DNA of 38,535 bases from a virus: IMG/VR virus record IMGVR_UViG_3300035034_003164, positions 1 through 38,535 of that record. One strand, written 5' to 3'. Numbering within the stretch: position 1 is the stretch's first letter; the number at the start of each line of letters is the position of its first letter. The notes under the pieces are model-generated. The model was given only the letters and a program-made list of their open reading frames with translations, did no database searches and was not told where the DNA came from. Position numbers and translations under genes: made by a program. Of this stretch, positions 10,176 to 38,535 are shown piece by piece.

Positions 10176-10415
10176 ATGAAACTAGAACCAACTAGCGACC
10201 TAACAGACTTCTATAATAATGTAGAAGACTTACCTTTACTGGAAACGCGTAGGAACCATAACTTAGGTCTAAAGAACGCCCAGGAAAACGGGGACGAAAA
10301 AGGTATTATAGTAGCTGAACACCATTTAAGATTTATAAATAAGGTCGCGGTTATGAGGTGTTTATTAAATACCGCGGTAGACCTGGAAGAAGAATACCCT
10401 AATGGGTGGGTCTAA
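10176..10415 (+). CDS. small protein resembling sigma-70 regions 1.2-2.1
   Basis: A 79-residue protein. Residues 11-62 follow the pattern of sigma-70 regions 1.2 to 2.1: 'FYNNVEDLPLLETRRNHNL' resembles the Y..i...pLLt..eE..L helix, 'GDEKGIIVAEHHLRFINKVA' resembles GD..A...L...NLRLVVSIA. The resemblance stops there: regions 2.2-2.4 and 4, needed for promoter recognition, are absent and the protein ends with a short acidic tail. It could be a sigma decoy, an RNA-polymerase-binding regulator, or chance helical similarity. It is the last gene before a strong terminator. Confidence 0.75.
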   Translation: MKLEPTSDLTDFYNNVEDLPLLETRRNHNLGLKNAQENGDEKGIIVAEHHLRFINKVAVMRCLLNTAVDLEEEYPNGWV

Positions 10416-10447
10416 AAATACTAAACTTGTAAATAAGGAAAAGATAA

Positions 10448-10469
10448 CTATACCAGGAATACGGTATAG
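10448..10469 (+). other. hairpin in 3' region of the 10176 gene
   Basis: CTATACC and GGTATAG form a perfect 7-bp stem around an 8-nt loop, 18 bp before the terminator hairpin. Together they make a two-hairpin 3' end. It may simply stabilise the transcript end or belong to a small RNA. Confidence 0.5.
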
Positions 10470-10487
10470 CATAACCGTAAGGGGAAG

Positions 10488-10513
10488 TCCGCTACTAGTT
10501 AGCGGATTTTTTT
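10488..10513 (+). terminator. intrinsic terminator after the lysis region
   Basis: TCCGCTA pairs perfectly with TAGCGGA across a 5-nt loop and is followed by seven T residues. It closes the transcription unit that runs through the fibre and lysis genes. Confidence 0.9.
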
Positions 10514-10537
10514 AATACAAGAAAAGTACAAGATTAT

Positions 10538-10565
10538 TTGACAAATAAAGTTTTAGGGTTATAGT
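10538..10565 (+). promoter_or_regulatory. sigma-70-type promoter for 10604-11549
   Basis: TTGACA at 10538 and TATAGT at 10560 are separated by 16 bp, directly after a terminator and 38 bp before the ATG at 10604. A second TATAAT at 10583 lies 15 bp before the ATG and may be an alternative -10. This is one of only two clear TTGAC-type promoters in the genome. Confidence 0.65.
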
Positions 10566-10603
10566 TACATTATGATTACTTTTATAATCTTATCACAAAC
10601 AAA

Positions 10604-10924
10604 ATGAAAAACACAAAAACTTACTACACCGGAGTTATTACGGACACGTATAACGCCCTAAACGCCCTAGAACGTAAACAACAAAAAGCAAGGGACAGGG
10701 CTAACCTTGTTCGGGTGGACTATCTACAGGAAAATAACGTAGGCGACGCTACAAGGAAATTAAAGGTACGATCTAAGCTAATGGATAAAGTCCATACGCT
10801 GAACGAAAAACAGATTAGACTAACCTACCAATTACTAGGAAAACAAGAAGAAGCTAGAACAATAGAAACCCAGGAAGAAAAAGAATATATTTACTTCGCT
10901 AACCACTATAATTATGCAGTATAA
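10604..10924 (+). CDS. unknown early protein, helical
   Basis: A 106-residue protein I do not recognise. It is basic in its first two thirds and predicted helical (NALNALERKQQKARDRANL, then KLMDKVHTLNEKQIRLTYQLL), so a coiled-coil or nucleic-acid-binding protein is possible. It is first in a two-gene unit behind a TTGACA promoter, which suggests early expression. The downstream gene overlaps it by 11 bp. Confidence 0.8.
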   Translation: MKNTKTYYTGVITDTYNALNALERKQQKARDRANLVRVDYLQENNVGDATRKLKVRSKLMDKVHTLNEKQIRLTYQLLGKQEEARTIETQEEKEYIYFANHYNYAV

Positions 10925-11549
10925 TTTTTTACACGGAATAAATGACGCTATATATAAATGGGTATTTCATACTAGCGGTATCCAAAAATTACTAGACTTG
11001 TATAAACTATTCTTTTTATCCCTTGCTATGGTTTACCGAGTGGACCAGGAAGGAGCCGTACAAATTATAGCGGGATCGAACCGACTAGGTGTAAAAATAA
11101 TGATCGGAATGTACTTAGTGGTAAACCTGGAAAATATTATAGCTTTAGTTATGTGATACGTTCCAAGTATCCAATGGAAGGAAGACGAAATACCGGAAGA
11201 AAAATACGTACCCGTGAACGAAGAATTAGGAAGTATAGACGGTGTAAGTATTCGGGATCTAATATTATTTATGTTAGAAGAATGAGGACTACCGACAGCA
11301 AAAAGTAAAGAACGTTTCGGTATCACTAACGACAGGCTAAAAAAGATCGGGGATAACCTGGAGCGTGTAAAGATCCTGGAACGTGGAACGAACAACGCTA
11401 GAGTATTGGCGACTAAAGACCTAGATAAAATTGTAGATATGGTAGCCGGTGTAGAGGACAGTAACGAACTAGGTAAGAGATTAGTAAAGATAAACGATAG
11501 CCAATATTCCATAGCCCCCTACTCTACCGTCCAGGAAGCCGTAGCGTAA
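10914..11549 (+). CDS. membrane segment plus winged-helix domain protein (FtsK-gamma-like)
   Basis: A 211-residue protein with TGAs at 11154 and 11282. The N-terminal third has hydrophobic stretches (LYKLFFLSLAMVY near 30-42 and KIMIGMYLVVNLENIIALVM near 61-80). The C-terminal half has a winged-helix pattern, IRDLILFMLEE-G-GLPTAKSKERFGITNDRLKKIGDNLERVKILERGTNNARVL, like the FtsK/SpoIIIE gamma domain or plasmid wHTH domains. A membrane-tethered DNA-binding protein would fit; DNA positioning or transcription control are both possible. It overlaps the preceding gene by 11 bp and is followed by a terminator. Confidence 0.75.
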
Positions 11550-11580
11550 AAGAACCGTAAAACCGCTTAGAATACAGGAT

Positions 11581-11612
11581 AAACCCCCGGTATACCCAGG
11601 GGTTTTCTTTTT
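11581..11612 (+). terminator. intrinsic terminator after 10914
   Basis: AAACCCC pairs with GGGGTTT across an 11-nt loop that itself holds the palindrome GGTATACC; a T-rich tract follows. It ends the two-gene early unit. Confidence 0.8.
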
Positions 11613-11619
11613 GTTTTCG

Positions 11620-11642
11620 CTTTTCGCTTGCAATTCGAAAAG
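11620..11642 (+). repeat. inverted repeat, possible operator or RNA promoter region
   Basis: CTTTTCG and CGAAAAG form a perfect 7-bp inverted repeat with a 9-bp centre (CTTGCAATT). It lies between the terminator and the structured RNA candidate, where a promoter for that RNA would be expected. No clear -35/-10 pair was found. Confidence 0.45.
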
Positions 11643-11669
11643 AAAAGATTAGTAAAAGGGTAGATCAAA

Positions 11670-11823
11670 ACCCGAACGATCTATTAAATGAAATGTGTGT
11701 AGTGCAGTCCCTATGGTGTATAGGGTATCCGATAGCCCCTAGGGGTGGATAAGGTGGAACATTACACACACACCAACTAATAAAGTCTTCTAGTTCGTTC
11801 GGGTCTAGGGGGCTTTATTTTTT
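11670..11823 (+). ncRNA. candidate structured phage RNA with 3' intrinsic terminator
   Basis: About 150 nt without a credible ORF that folds well by eye. P1: TGTGTGTAGTG (11694-11704) with CATTACACACA (11760-11770), 11 pairs with one G-U. Inside P1 are P2, CCCTAT/ATAGGG (11709-11725), and P3, TATCC/GGATA (11726-11751) with an inner GCCC/GGGT stem, making a three-way junction. A terminator hairpin follows: 15 pairs (11779-11793 with 11805-11819), loop TTCGTTCGGGT, then a T run. The loop is perfectly complementary over 10 nt to ACCCGAACGA at the 5' end (11670-11679) and over 7 nt to ACCCGAA in three gene leaders. It could be a trans-acting RNA or an attenuator of the initiator gene. I recognise no known RNA family. 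Confidence 0.65.
11779..11823 (+). terminator. intrinsic terminator just before the replication initiator
   Basis: AATAAAGTCTTCTAG pairs with CTAGGGGGCTTTATT over 15 positions, three of them G-U, with an 11-nt loop; a run of six T ends 10 bp before the initiator ATG. Transcripts reaching the initiator gene from upstream would have to read through it. Confidence 0.85.
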
Positions 11824-11830
11824 ACCCGAA
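11824..11830 (+). promoter_or_regulatory. ACCCGAA leader element of the 11834 gene
   Basis: ACCCGAA lies 3 nt before ATG. The same heptamer is 3-4 nt before the start codons at 13715 and 16958. It is complementary to the loop of the terminator hairpin immediately upstream. Confidence 0.6.
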
Positions 11831-11833
11831 ATT

Positions 11834-13024
11834 ATGAACGTACTATATGAACAACTACAAGGGGGAAGTTATATACAAGTAAGTAAACCACTAGCTAGGA
11901 AACTAGGACTAGACGTAGCCGGATACCTTAGCGAAATGTACGCTAGATATTCCTACTTCTTAGGCCGTAATATGTTGGATCCTAAAGGTGGTTTTTTTGT
12001 TTCCCCAAAAATACTAGAACAAGAAATAGGCCTACCAAAAAAGACCCAGTATAGACTAGCTAGTAAACTAGTGGAACTGGGACTAATGACTAAGAAGAAG
12101 AAGAAAGTAAAAGGCGCAATGCGAAGAAGTTATTATTACTTGAACCATAAGGCGGTAAAGAAAATTATTATATTGTCAATGGAAGAACAACAAAAACTAG
12201 TAGAAGAACGAAACGGCGAAAATGAAGACTTCGCCTTAGTAATTGACGGGGAAGGTAACCACGGGACCCAAAACGACCCCGTAGATAATTTAGTAGATAG
12301 TGGGGTAGCAAACGACCCCGACGGGGTAGCAGACGACCCCGTAACGGGACCCGAAACGACCCCGCGCGGGACCCAGGACGACCCCGTATATAATAATAAT
12401 AAGAATGATACTAAAACTAATGATCTAAAAACTAATAACCTACAAGTTGCTGAATTGGAAATTAAAAAAATTACCGTAGCAGATATTCCTATACAGGTAG
12501 AAGGAATGGAAACAAAGATTACCCGCGCGGGGAAAATTAAATTTTGACCAGTCGTACGGTTTACCCTGGAAGCATTCTTAAAACTGGTGGAAGGTTACGA
12601 CGTGGATATATTGGAAAGCGTTATTAGCGAATTATGCTACTACCAAAAAAATAAGAAATACAAGGATTATTATTTAACCACCCTAAGCCGGATCCGTAAA
12701 AAAACCCCAACAGCAAAACGGACCAAGGAAGGGGAAGAATGCTACAGGATCATAGAACAATTTAATAACGGCCTGGTAGACGGTGACGTACTGGATAATT
12801 CTACCTATTGCGAAAAGATTATTACGAAGCTGAACCAACACACCGGCGTAAAAAGTTCCGAGTATACACGACAGGAAGTACTAACCGGGATCCTATGATT
12901 AGCGAAAGCGAACAAGTACGTAATTAGGAAAATATCTAACCCTAAAAGTATCTTTAATAATTTAGCTGAACTAGCAAATACCGCCGGATCGGACGTACAA
13001 GAACAAAACCAATTTAGTTACTAA
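11834..13024 (+). CDS. replication initiator protein (winged-helix, O/DnaD-like)
   Basis: A 396-residue protein needing readthrough of TGAs at 12545 and 12896. The N-terminal 120 residues carry a winged-helix pattern, GGFFVSPKILEQEIGLPKKTQYRLASKLVELGLMTKKKK, like phage O, RepA_N and DnaD-type initiators. A central acidic low-complexity linker (about 140-205, with repeated NDPV and GTQ) is encoded by the iteron-like DNA. The C-terminal 160 residues are helical and end with RKISNPKSIFNNLAELA, which resembles the end of initiator proteins that load helicase. No helicase or loader gene is seen, so host helicase recruitment is inferred. The start follows ACCCGAA-ATT. Confidence 0.75.
12263..12450 (+). 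other. candidate replication origin: five iterons plus AT-rich element
   Basis: ACGACCCCG occurs five times at 12273, 12312, 12333, 12356 and 12378; the last four are 21-23 bp apart, two helical turns. Each lies in a longer repeat of the form GGG-N7-ACGACCCCG. From 12387 to about 12450 the sequence becomes strongly AT-rich (TATATAATAATAATAAGAAT and onward). The layout, iterons inside the initiator gene followed by an AT-rich stretch, is that of the lambda O-gene origin. Function is inferred from architecture. Confidence 0.65.
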
Positions 13025-13411: not shown

Positions 13412-13437
13412 CCTTTATTATTTATGCTATATCAATG
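13412..13437 (+). promoter_or_regulatory. promoter-like leader, copy 1 (TTTATGCTATATCA-ATG)
   Basis: The 25 bases before the 13435 start are nearly identical to those before 16059, differing by one T insertion and one base: CCTTTAT(T)ATTTATGCTATA(T/C)CA. TATGCT ends 6 nt before ATG, so a transcript could begin at the start codon and be leaderless. No -35 match is evident here. Confidence 0.55.
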
Positions 13438-13691: not shown

Positions 13692-13704
13692 ATCCACCGG
13701 AAAA

Positions 13705-13711
13705 CCCGAAC
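13705..13711 (+). promoter_or_regulatory. ACCCGAA leader element of the 13715 gene
   Basis: ACCCGAA followed by CATT-less spacing to ATG at 13715 (ACCCGAA, then three or four bases, then ATG). It follows a terminator by only about 14 bp, as at 11824, leaving little room for a promoter. Confidence 0.55.
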
Positions 13712-13714
13712 ATT

Positions 13715-14272
13715 ATGGAAAAGCTAAACCCAAGTAAAAGAAAACACCCTATGGAAGACGAAAAAAGGGTAGCGGAACTAAACGACTTCGCTAGCCAATC
13801 TATAGAACTGGGTAGGGAAGCCTTCGCGGAACTGTACGAACAAGAACCTACTTTAGGTAAAGAAATTTTCGACTTCTTTAGATTGCCGTATAGTAACTTA
13901 CATAAGCAATTTAGGGAAATAATTATACAGCCACTAACGGAAGCTAAAATAAACCAACAGGACGAACTAAAGAAAACTATAATAGATAAAAGACGCCAGG
14001 AACTGGGTAAGAAGTTCGACCTATACGGGGAAGAATATAAGATAGTAAACCAGTACGTAAAAGTATCCGAGGACCGAGACCATGACCTAGCGGAATACGT
14101 GCTAAAGAAAATAAGATTATTAGTTATTGCTATTCCGATCCGGGATAAAGAAAAAAGGAAGGAAGTATTACATATAACGGAAGTAGTAGACGAAGTGGAA
14201 ACGCCAGGTACTTTTTTCCGGGTTATGTCAAAATGCCAGGACCGGCAACCTACGAGCGGGACAGGATTTTAG
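13715..14272 (+). CDS. unknown helical protein with ACCCGAA leader
   Basis: A 185-residue, largely helical charged protein I do not recognise. It has LNDFASQSIELGREAFAELYEQEPTLGKEIFDFFRLP in the first third and IRLLVIAIPIRDKEKRKEVLHITEVVDEVE near the end. It starts only 23 bp after a strong terminator, so expression may depend on readthrough or a promoter overlapping the terminator. An alternative frame of its last 40 bases contains a possible start of the next gene. Confidence 0.75.
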   Translation: MEKLNPSKRKHPMEDEKRVAELNDFASQSIELGREAFAELYEQEPTLGKEIFDFFRLPYSNLHKQFREIIIQPLTEAKINQQDELKKTIIDKRRQELGKKFDLYGEEYKIVNQYVKVSEDRDHDLAEYVLKKIRLLVIAIPIRDKEKRKEVLHITEVVDEVETPGTFFRVMSKCQDRQPTSGTGF

Positions 14273-16036: not shown

Positions 16037-16061
16037 CCTTTATATTTATGCTATACCAATG
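16037..16061 (+). promoter_or_regulatory. promoter-like leader, copy 2 (TTTATGCTATACCA-ATG)
   Basis: Near-identical to the 25 bases before 13435. TATGCT is followed by six bases and ATG, which suggests a leaderless start, in addition to the TTGACT/TATAAA promoter just upstream. Confidence 0.55.
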
Positions 16062-16931: not shown

Positions 16932-16946
16932 TTTTACTTTTGTAGA

Positions 16947-16953
16947 AAACCCG
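16947..16953 (+). promoter_or_regulatory. ACCCGAA leader element of the exonuclease gene
   Basis: ACCCGAA followed by a short A tract and ATG at 16958. A TATAAT lies 25 bp before the ATG (16929), so here the element sits in a plausible short 5' leader. Confidence 0.55.
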
Positions 16954-16957
16954 AAAA

Positions 16958-18046
16958 ATGCCAATACCACTAGACAACTACGTAATATATAATCGTGGAC
17001 GGATCACCGCCAGTAAATTAAAATGTTTTCGCGGGAACCCTAAAGAATATTACCTAAAATACGAAAAGGAAATGCCGGTACCTAGAACAACTGGTAGACA
17101 CTTCGTAATAGGTAACGCGTTCGACGATCTAGTAAGTTACGGTAAGGAATACTTCCTAAAGAAATACTACATAGACGACGGACTAGTAACCGCGGGGCTT
17201 AAAGAAATGTTACTTAAAAGGTATGAACTAGAAGGAGAATATAGCAAGGAAGACGTATACGAAGAAAAAAGAAGACTTAAAGCTATGAAGCTACCGGAAC
17301 TTAGAAAAGAATATTACTTACCGGACGGGAACTATCGTATAAGACTTACACCCGGTGAAGGTACTATGATCCTGGGAATGTATGAAGAAGTAGTACGCCC
17401 GGATATGGAAGGAAACAACTTAGCGGATCTATTCGGGAAATATAATACCCAGGTAGTAATAGAAGCGGAATACGCCGGGATCCCTATACGTGGAAAATTA
17501 GATAGGTTCATATTTATAGACCAGGAAAAAAGAAGGTATACGGTGAAGTGGGTAAATAAATTTATAAAAAGACAGGGGAAGGCGAAGCGAATAAAGCTAG
17601 CTAGCAAACATAAAATAATAGGGCTAATACGTGACCGGAAAACTACAAGCCTGGACGTAGCGAAAGCAACCGACGCGGATATAAACTTTTATAACTTCGA
17701 AATGGAAGTTAGTAAGTGGGGATATGATTTTAGTATGGCGTTCTATAGTGCCTTAGTACTTGCAAAATATGGAGTACTTAGCGACGTGGTACTAGACTTC
17801 GTACAAAAGAAGGACCCGTACCCGTACCATTGACACCGGGAACATTCTAGCAAAATGCACCGTATCATACAGGACGAAATAAAGCTATGTTTAGAAACTC
17901 TAATACGTTGCTACGAAGTAGGGGACCGACCACTAGTAAACGTGATAAGCTGAAAAGATCTAGACCGCGGGGATCTTATGAAAAGTTCATACTATAGACA
18001 CTTCCCGGAAAGCGTACAGACTTCTTTTACAACTGGGGAATATTAA
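16958..18046 (+). CDS. PD-(D/E)XK exonuclease (RecB/Cas4/RecE-like)
   Basis: A 362-residue protein with TGAs at 17831 and 17951. ITASKLKCFRGNPKEYYLKYE near the start and VIGNAFDDLVSY at 48-59 match the N-terminal substrate-binding part of phage PD-(D/E)XK exonucleases. The catalytic set is visible: Asp182 in GIPIRGKLDRF, then Asp226 and Lys228 in LIRDRKTT, followed by a helix with YSALVLAKYG. Such proteins resect double-strand ends to 3' single strands for the annealing protein encoded 26 bp upstream. The C-terminal 70 residues continue after the first TGA with Leu/Tyr-rich helices. Confidence 0.85.
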
Positions 18047-20693: not shown

Positions 20694-21296
20694 ATGTGAA
20701 AAGACAAGAAAAAAAACGTAGTAGTAACGAAGAAGGAAGACCTACCTAAATTATTCCATAGGTTTAGATTTAAGGGGTTACTATTGGACGTGGAAGGTGA
20801 CCGGATCCTAAAGATCCAGGTAAGAAATAAATTACCCGAGGTCCACGGGAAGTATGATATAACCCGGAAAATAAACGCGGATAAGTTCGACAACGAAATA
20901 GAGCGTATAGAAAAAGATTACGCTAACGAAATAGATAAAGTAACTAAGGACTACGATATACAGATAGGAGCCAGGAAGGAAAACGGGTTACTAAATGATA
21001 CGGCCGACCTGGAAAAAGAAGTATCTAGGATCGTAGGGGAATTAGTGAAGGAGCGCGACGAAGCTATAAGCGACACGGAAAAGAAAAGGGATACCTACCA
21101 ACTGGACAACCAGGACATAAACCACCGGGCGGAATTACAAAAAATGAGTTATAAAAGCGGTAAGGGGGATATGGAAACATATATAGAAATATGGGTACCG
21201 GATAGTCTTATAGACGATCTACGTATTATAGTAGCGAAGGGTCTACTAAATAGTTACAAAATGAACCTAGACGTAAGACAAACGAAATTACTTTAA
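20694..21296 (+). CDS. unknown helical protein with ATG-TGA start
   Basis: A 200-residue protein whose second codon is TGA at 20697 (Met-Gly-Lys-Asp). It is strongly charged with a likely coiled coil at about 60-135 (NEIERIEKDYANEIDKVTKDYD, then VKERDEAISDTEKKRDTY) and a C-terminal WVPDSLIDDLRIIVAKGLLN. It sits among early-type small genes. No recognised family; a nucleic-acid or structural accessory role is possible. Confidence 0.7.
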
Positions 21297-37783: not shown

Positions 37784-37801
37784 TTCTTATAATAGGTCGA
37801 T

Positions 37802-38535
37802 ATGCCAGGTAAGTTAGAAATAGATATAGTAGCCCGTAGGCTAAAAAACGTTACCCAAAACATTATAACGAACTTTCGTAGTGCCGGTAAAACAGTCGAA
37901 GCCGACCTAGAAAAGTCTATAGAACGTGGGGGTAAGAAATGAGTAAACGGCCTAAAAGGTGCTATAGGACAATTAGCTACGGTTATTGGATCCGCGGTAA
38001 TAGTTAGGGGTTTCCAACGTCTAAGTACTGGTATTATCACCCTAGCGGGGAACTTAGAACAAGCGCGTATATCATTTAAGACTATGCTAGGATCCGCGGA
38101 AGAAGCGGACAGACTACTAAGAGAATTAGCAGACTTCGCCCAGTCTACACCGTTCGAACTAACTGGAGTAAGACAAAACGCGAAACAGTTACTAGCTATG
38201 GGGGTAAGTACTAAGGATCTACTACCAACACTAAAGAGCCTAGGGGACGTATCCGCGGGGTTATCTATACCGTTGGAACGTTTAGCGCTGAATTACGGAC
38301 AAGTAATAAGCCAGGGAAAACTAACAGGTAGAGAACTTAGAGACTTCACCGTAGCCGGTGTACCTATCCTAGCTGAACTTGCTAGAATGCTAGGAAAAAC
38401 AAACGCGCAAATCCAAGAAATGATAAGCGACGGGGCAATTAGTGCAGATATAGTCGTACAGGCCTTTAAGAATATGAGTAGTGAAGGTGGTAAATTTGCT
38501 AACCTTATGGAAGCCCAAAGCCAAACCCTACAAGG
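37802..38535 (+). CDS. tail tape measure protein, 5' part (continues at window start)
   Basis: The N-terminal 244 residues of the tape measure protein; positions 38409-38535 duplicate 1-127, so the frame continues at position 128. One TGA at 37940 lies in GGKK-G-VNGLKGAIGQL. The conserved tape-measure domain is clear: LEQARISFKTMLGSAEEADRLLRELADFAQSTPFELTGVRQNAKQLLAMG, then VISQGKLTGRELRDFTVAGVPILAELARML. The start ATG follows TTCTTATAATAGGTCGAT, a TATAAT-containing leader without Shine-Dalgarno. Confidence 0.95.
38409..38535. repeat. terminal overlap, copy 2 (circular contig)
   Basis: Exact repeat of positions 1-127; removing it gives a 38,408-bp circle. Confidence 0.9.

Follow-up and report, generated by a model that had tools for sequence, protein, structure and literature searches.

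A candidate phage leader RNA with a terminator loop complementary to the start sites of three genes

In pT181 and in R1 (CopA/CopT), control involves loop-loop pairing within the leader of the replication initiator, with antisense RNAs that are transcribed from the opposite strand. The c4 RNA of phage P1 and the CI RNA of satellite P4 are same-strand antisense RNAs, derived from the leader of their own target operon and pairing within its transcript; there an antirepressor or replication is controlled, by pairings and processing different from those proposed below. The candidate RNA described here (Table 1) would share the loop-loop pairing in an initiator leader with the first pair, although it is encoded on the same strand as its target, and like the second pair it would be same-strand, leader-derived, and antisense to its own transcript. 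On paper it resembles a leader-derived antisense RNA. It differs from P1 c4 in having no Rfam C4 match: a search of Rfam, including the C4 antisense RNA and plasmid ctRNA families, gave no match at the gathering score, the best weak match having E = 2.3.

Two other described systems bear on the arrangement. In prophage Gifsy-1, a single promoter yields both the terminated small RNA IsrK and a read-through mRNA to which it binds in trans (PMC4825925). The layout, with a small RNA gene carrying its own terminator directly 5′ of the controlled gene (PMC4825925), matches the one found here; the action differs, since IsrK activates translation of an antirepressor via an alternative-structure element in its target (PMC4825925), while the candidate RNA is proposed to repress replication genes through its terminator loop. 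In Staphylococcus aureus RNAIII, the loops of hairpins H7, H13, and H14, the last of these being the terminator, bind several mRNAs by pairing at their start sites (PMC3053349). Hairpin loops, including that of the terminator, are likewise set against the start sites of several mRNAs here, by prediction. However, the C-rich RNAIII loops bind Shine-Dalgarno sequences (PMC3053349), while the loop considered here faces ACCCGAA in a phage without a Shine-Dalgarno-like motif, and the two RNAs are unrelated in sequence.

The window (the whole stretch of DNA analyzed) contains a complete virus record of 38,535 bases, with 57 of its 58 predicted genes on the plus strand. Genetic code 25, with TGA as glycine, fits this phage: TGA is read through in frame, and the residue aligned to it is mostly glycine (94 positions in one direction and 8 in the other, comparing the window with relatives). 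This code is used by the Absconditabacteria, the Gracilibacteria, and part of their phages (PMC10746230), and a host in one of these two groups would fit it. A Shine-Dalgarno-like 4-mer is absent from positions -15 to -4 at all 57 gene starts, in agreement with the listing of the Absconditabacteria examined among organisms without the usual anti-Shine-Dalgarno sequence (PMC10783764). In the literature searched, no RNA regulator is reported for phages of either group.

As a separate observation, TTTA begins 30 to 17 nt 5′ of the ATG in 53 of the 57 genes (mostly at -26 to -18; about 10% expected), even where this lies within the preceding coding sequence, and shows enrichment in several related phages as well; possibly it marks gene starts in place of a Shine-Dalgarno sequence. 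A tape-measure-like frame leaves the window at both ends (37796-38535 and 3-2339). Both parts match a single frame of a related genome, G004, at 64 and 40%, respectively; the genome is thus possibly circular, with the record cut open and lacking a small piece.

The candidate RNA lies in the largest intergenic gap of the genome (11550-11833, 284 nt). The terminator-like hairpin behind the upstream gene suggests that a new transcription unit begins downstream of it, within the gap. A promoter search of 11561-11700 gave only a weak consensus match, which a stricter promoter scan did not pick up. In the second-largest gap (10416-10603), a strong terminator at 10485-10525 (z = -3.9) is followed by a promoter close to consensus, TTGACA-16-TATAGT, at 10538-10565.

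Table 1. Coordinates in the window of the candidate RNA, its flanking signals, and the three genes with ACCCGAA leaders.
Feature	Position	Strand	Evidence or remark
Terminator-like hairpin 3′ of upstream gene 10914-11549	11575-11615	+	-14.3 kcal/mol, z = -2.0, then TTTTCTTTTTG
Possible weak promoter, TTGCAA, ~16 nt, TAGTAA (putative)	11628-11655	+	Weak consensus match
Candidate RNA, ~165 nt	11658-11823	+	Whole-RNA z = -3.1 vs. shuffles
5′ hairpin, stem (G)GUAGAUC/GAUCUAU(U)	11659-11685	+	Closing pairs P = 0.84-0.87
5′ hairpin loop AAAACCCGAAC, sense copy of leader motif	11667-11677	+	Sequence
Three-way junction (predicted), weakest structural part	11694-11770	+	-28 kcal/mol
Intrinsic terminator: 15-pair stem, loop, U run	11779-11823	+	-17.5 kcal/mol, z = -6.5
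Terminator loop UUCGUUCGGGU (= TTCGTTCGGGT), antisense copy of motif	11794-11804	+	Complementarity
ACCCGAA leader of initiator	11824-11830	+	3 nt 5′ of ATG 11834
Replication initiator/O-like protein, 396 aa (code 25)	11834-13024	+	phrog_428, E = 6e-8; phrog_9773 (O-like), 1e-6
ACCCGAA leader of gene 13715	13704-13710	+	AAAACCCGAAC at 13701-13711; 4 nt 5′ of ATG
Protein of unknown function, 185 aa	13715-14272	+	No family match
ACCCGAA leader of exonuclease	16949-16955	+	AAAACCCGAAA at 16946-16956; 2 nt 5′ of ATG 16958
Exonuclease, RecE/exonuclease VIII-like, PD-(D/E)XK, 362 aa (code 25)	16958-18046	+	phrog_412, E = 3e-5

In the minimum free energy fold of the candidate RNA, the middle part is branched and lies between a 5′ hairpin and a strong terminator hairpin. 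A reading of this region from sequence alone (the sequence-only reading) had described a three-way junction followed by a 15-bp terminator hairpin. The terminator is borne out: its stem (11779-11793/11805-11819) has 15 pairs, including G-U, none of 200 shuffles was equally good, and the minus-strand version is far weaker (-6.1 kcal/mol). The junction is indeed predicted, but by itself (segment 11665-11776) it is no stabler than shuffles (z = -0.68), though the RNA as a whole is (z = -3.1).

The terminator loop had also been described as complementary at 10 of 10 positions to the 5′ region of the same RNA. This holds, as one run (11670-11679 against 11795-11804); with stem bases included, 13 of 14 positions are complementary (11670-11683 against 11791-11804), and 8 nt of this complementarity is loop to loop. 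The motif is not at the 5′ end of the RNA, as had been supposed: the element begins earlier, and ACCCGAAC / ACCCGAACGA lies in the loop of hairpin 11659-11685. With ACCCGAACGA displayed there, the motif and its complement are both in hairpin loops of one RNA.

The terminator is directly 5′ of the initiator gene, whose ATG is 11 nt past position 11823. The candidate RNA is therefore probably also the initiator's own 5′ leader, and the initiator mRNA must read through the terminator, unless there is a promoter inside the RNA.

The terminator loop is complementary to 11824-11830 (7 nt), 13704-13711 (8 nt), and 16949-16955 (7 nt), upstream of the initiator, 13715, and exonuclease genes. On the plus strand ACCCGAA is found only at 11670, 11824, 12349, 13704, and 16949, three of these ending 2, 3, or 4 nt before an ATG. 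The sequence-only reading was thus correct in finding a single further copy, near 12349, and its spacing of 3-4 nt is right for genes 11834 (3) and 13715 (4), with 2 nt for gene 16958. The copy at 12349 is in the iterons (approximately 12262-12394, within the initiator gene), and was set aside as one variant of a longer repeat. The minus strand has six copies; the total of 11, against 6.6 expected, was reached by 9 of 100 shuffles and is within chance, so that the unusual feature is placement alone. As to the genes themselves, the exonuclease also matched PF12684 (E = 3e-4), below that family's cut-off, and for the 13715 protein no family was found and the structure model was uninformative (pLDDT 38.5).

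Chance was estimated in several ways. In the first (null A), every genomic 11-mer was treated as a possible loop: 0.6% match at least three leaders, or 0.2% among 11-mers with at least four G/C, some of which are further copies of TTCGGGT itself. In the second (null B), the real loop was compared with random leader positions, and reached three matches in 0.46%. A third null allowed any strong hairpin in the window to supply the loop. With stems of at least 10, three leaders were reached in none of 400 shuffled-leader sets and in 15-18 of 400 random-position sets (3.8-4.5%); with stems of at least 8, in 24 and 35 of 400, respectively (6-9%). A seed complementary to distant start sites is unlikely by chance, at 0.2-0.6% for this loop and about 4% over all strong hairpins; the earlier judgment that chance placement was "very unlikely" stands as "unlikely," and the stronger wording does not survive the count over all strong hairpins. 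By duplex energy, the leaders of genes 31973 and 24371 pair with the loop across the ATG about as well as the three leaders do, and pairing is not enriched at gene starts as a group (4 of 57, vs. 18 of 332 other ATGs).

Relatives were sought with the initiator, exonuclease, and RecT proteins and with DNA patterns of the loop and leaders. None with the same module was found, and the initiator, exonuclease, and candidate RNA were not detected at any other locus; single-protein scans detect close relatives only and may have overlooked those at a greater distance. The exact loop, leader, and ATG pattern gave 33 matches, against a rough chance expectation of about 50; these were inspected and rejected, none having the layout of the window. 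Terminase searches returned a dozen clade members (L002-L008 and L021-L025), with structural genes in common and a distant RecT in one. The two closest relatives by local identity (63-64% in one protein each) are both fragments, 6.9 and 15.8 kb long; for RecT, relatives show about 30% identity. When 44 loci of mostly related phages were searched with a covariance model built on the RNA, only the window itself matched, and scans of those phages for terminator loops matching several leaders gave mainly low-complexity matches. In one of these genomes (G010, minus strand), a hairpin at 21070-21102 (L096/L097) has a terminator loop, CAACCTCAAAAGG, whose complement, TTGAGG, is found upstream of several genes; the design may be similar, or the match may be a chance one to a Shine-Dalgarno-like motif.

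Folding and statistics support the sequence-only reading in its proposal of a structured RNA that has a terminator of its own and a complementary loop; they do not support a choice among its models. The interpretation is partly supported: those models (an RNA acting in trans, an attenuator, and a protein-bound motif titrated by the RNA) are the right list, and the evidence separates none of them.

From the sequence matches, predicted hairpins, gene order, and gene families, we infer a promoter, partial termination, pairing in trans, and repression rather than activation. This explanation is possible, and is the one favored here, tentatively. The segment 11658-11823 would be at once a small RNA gene and the initiator operon's leader. 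Transcription would begin near 11658, most transcripts stopping at the terminator (11823) to give an RNA of ~165 nt and a minority reading through to give the initiator mRNA, with its ATG 11 nt further on. The loop of the released RNA, UUCGUUCGGGU, would pair in trans with ACCCGAA 2-4 nt before the starts of the initiator, 13715, and exonuclease genes, hindering ribosome binding, and replication and recombination genes would be held down jointly. The 5′ loop, AAAACCCGAAC, would kiss the same seed, limiting its availability or letting the RNA pair with itself.

Several properties of the locus argue for this. The terminator is strong, has a large loop, and is on the plus strand; the loop fits three leaders at near-equal spacing (p ~0.005 for this loop and ~0.04 over all strong hairpins); sense and antisense copies, complementary at 13 of 14 positions, are both in hairpin loops of one RNA; at least two of the three genes belong to DNA replication or recombination; the terminator-like hairpin upstream points to a new unit starting in the gap; the site at 16949-16955 is unpaired in the predicted fold; and IsrK (PMC4825925) and RNAIII (PMC3053349) are precedents. 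On the other side, no relative with the element was found, hence no covariation; the pairing is of 7-8 bp only; by duplex energy, the loop is bound at least as well by two other leaders, those of 31973 and 24371, with start sites as a group unenriched; the 5′ loop competes for the seed; the predicted fold pairs the CCC of the 11834 site and, partly and in a small hairpin, the CCG of the 13715 site; and the promoter is weak. The main weakness is the AAA that the 5′ loop and two of the leaders have just before ACCCGAA: the terminator loop cannot pair with it, nor is it expected, being found at 5% of leader positions.

A more specific form of the explanation by trans pairing, in which the leader RNA of a code 25 phage would be a trans regulator recognizing a non-Shine-Dalgarno tag, AAAACCCGAA, in three genes of replication and recombination, with the copy in its second loop as a built-in decoy, and with translation independent of Shine-Dalgarno pairing, is rather doubtful. 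If the element is real, it would show a way for a small RNA or protein to control start sites that have no Shine-Dalgarno sequence to cover, and would join the start of replication and recombination in one regulon.

As a second possibility, a phage or host protein might bind AAAACCCGAA RNA and repress the three start sites, the 5′ loop being a decoy or a sensor that favors termination. The AAA common to the 5′ loop and two leaders, unaccounted for by loop pairing, favors this: the sense motif that they share is longer than the terminator loop can pair with. AAAACCCGAA has three copies in the 38.5 kb: that of the 5′ loop, and one each in the 13715 and 16958 leaders. No other 10-mer with at least four G/C and three copies has two of them in leaders. 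The 13 of 14 complementarity of the 5′ segment to the terminator loop is also what a switch would have. However, the initiator leader has ACCCGAA alone, preceded by U; no candidate protein was identified; and a second reason is needed for an antisense copy placed exactly within the terminator loop. This possibility is considered unlikely.

A third possibility is that the leader acts only in cis, as an attenuator or pseudoknot for the initiator alone, with either the 5′ segment or the downstream ACCCGAA as pairing partner of the terminator loop; coincidence or old duplications would then account for the copies in the 13715 and 16958 leaders. The read-through required of an initiator mRNA starting upstream of the RNA suits such a role, as does the ability of the 5′ segment to pair at 13 of 14 positions with the loop side of the terminator. 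Forced as a nested structure, however, the helix between them gives -46.9 kcal/mol, about 6 less stable than the terminator form (-52.8 kcal/mol), and the same 10-mer is found at start-site spacing in two further leaders. A role in cis alone is judged distinctly unlikely.

Partial coincidence, with an ordinary terminator or structured leader and leader heptamers that recur by chance, is an improbable fourth. It is consistent with the total ACCCGAA count, with the 6-9% of null sets that reach three leaders once weaker hairpins are allowed, and with a second heptamer, CGTACCT, that recurs before three ATGs. Against it are the 0.2-0.6% obtained for this loop, on top of which come the 10-mer identity and the 13 of 14 inverted repeat.

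Finally, a minus-strand antisense RNA is very improbable: the complement of the 5′ hairpin would show a loop, GUUCGGGUUUU, pairing with the 13715, 16958, and 11834 leaders over 11, 10, and 7 nt, which would explain the AAA flank and is stronger than the plus-strand loop at 13715 (-16.9 vs. -13.9 kcal/mol) and 16958 (-13.3 vs. -10.5 kcal/mol), but the strong terminator is specific to the plus strand, scans gave no convincing minus-strand promoter, and nearly all predicted genes are on the plus strand.

Other short sequences recur near gene starts in the window. CGTACCT, the second recurring start-site heptamer, is found at 10176, 19687, and 25261, at exactly -7 of three genes. TATGCTATAYCA is found at 13423-13434 and 16047-16058 (plus strand), immediately 5′ of the ATGs at 13435 and 16059 (RecT), and resembles an extended -10 box yielding a near-leaderless mRNA; the genes that follow these two are 13715 and 16958, the two with AAAACCCGAA. 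A degenerate 12-mer version of TATGCTATAYCA showed no enrichment across the window. ATGACATTGTAAAAA has six near-identical plus-strand copies (4271, 27964, 31904, 34253, 36097, and 36948), against 0.1 expected; lying in gaps 5′ of structural-region genes, these are probably late promoters.
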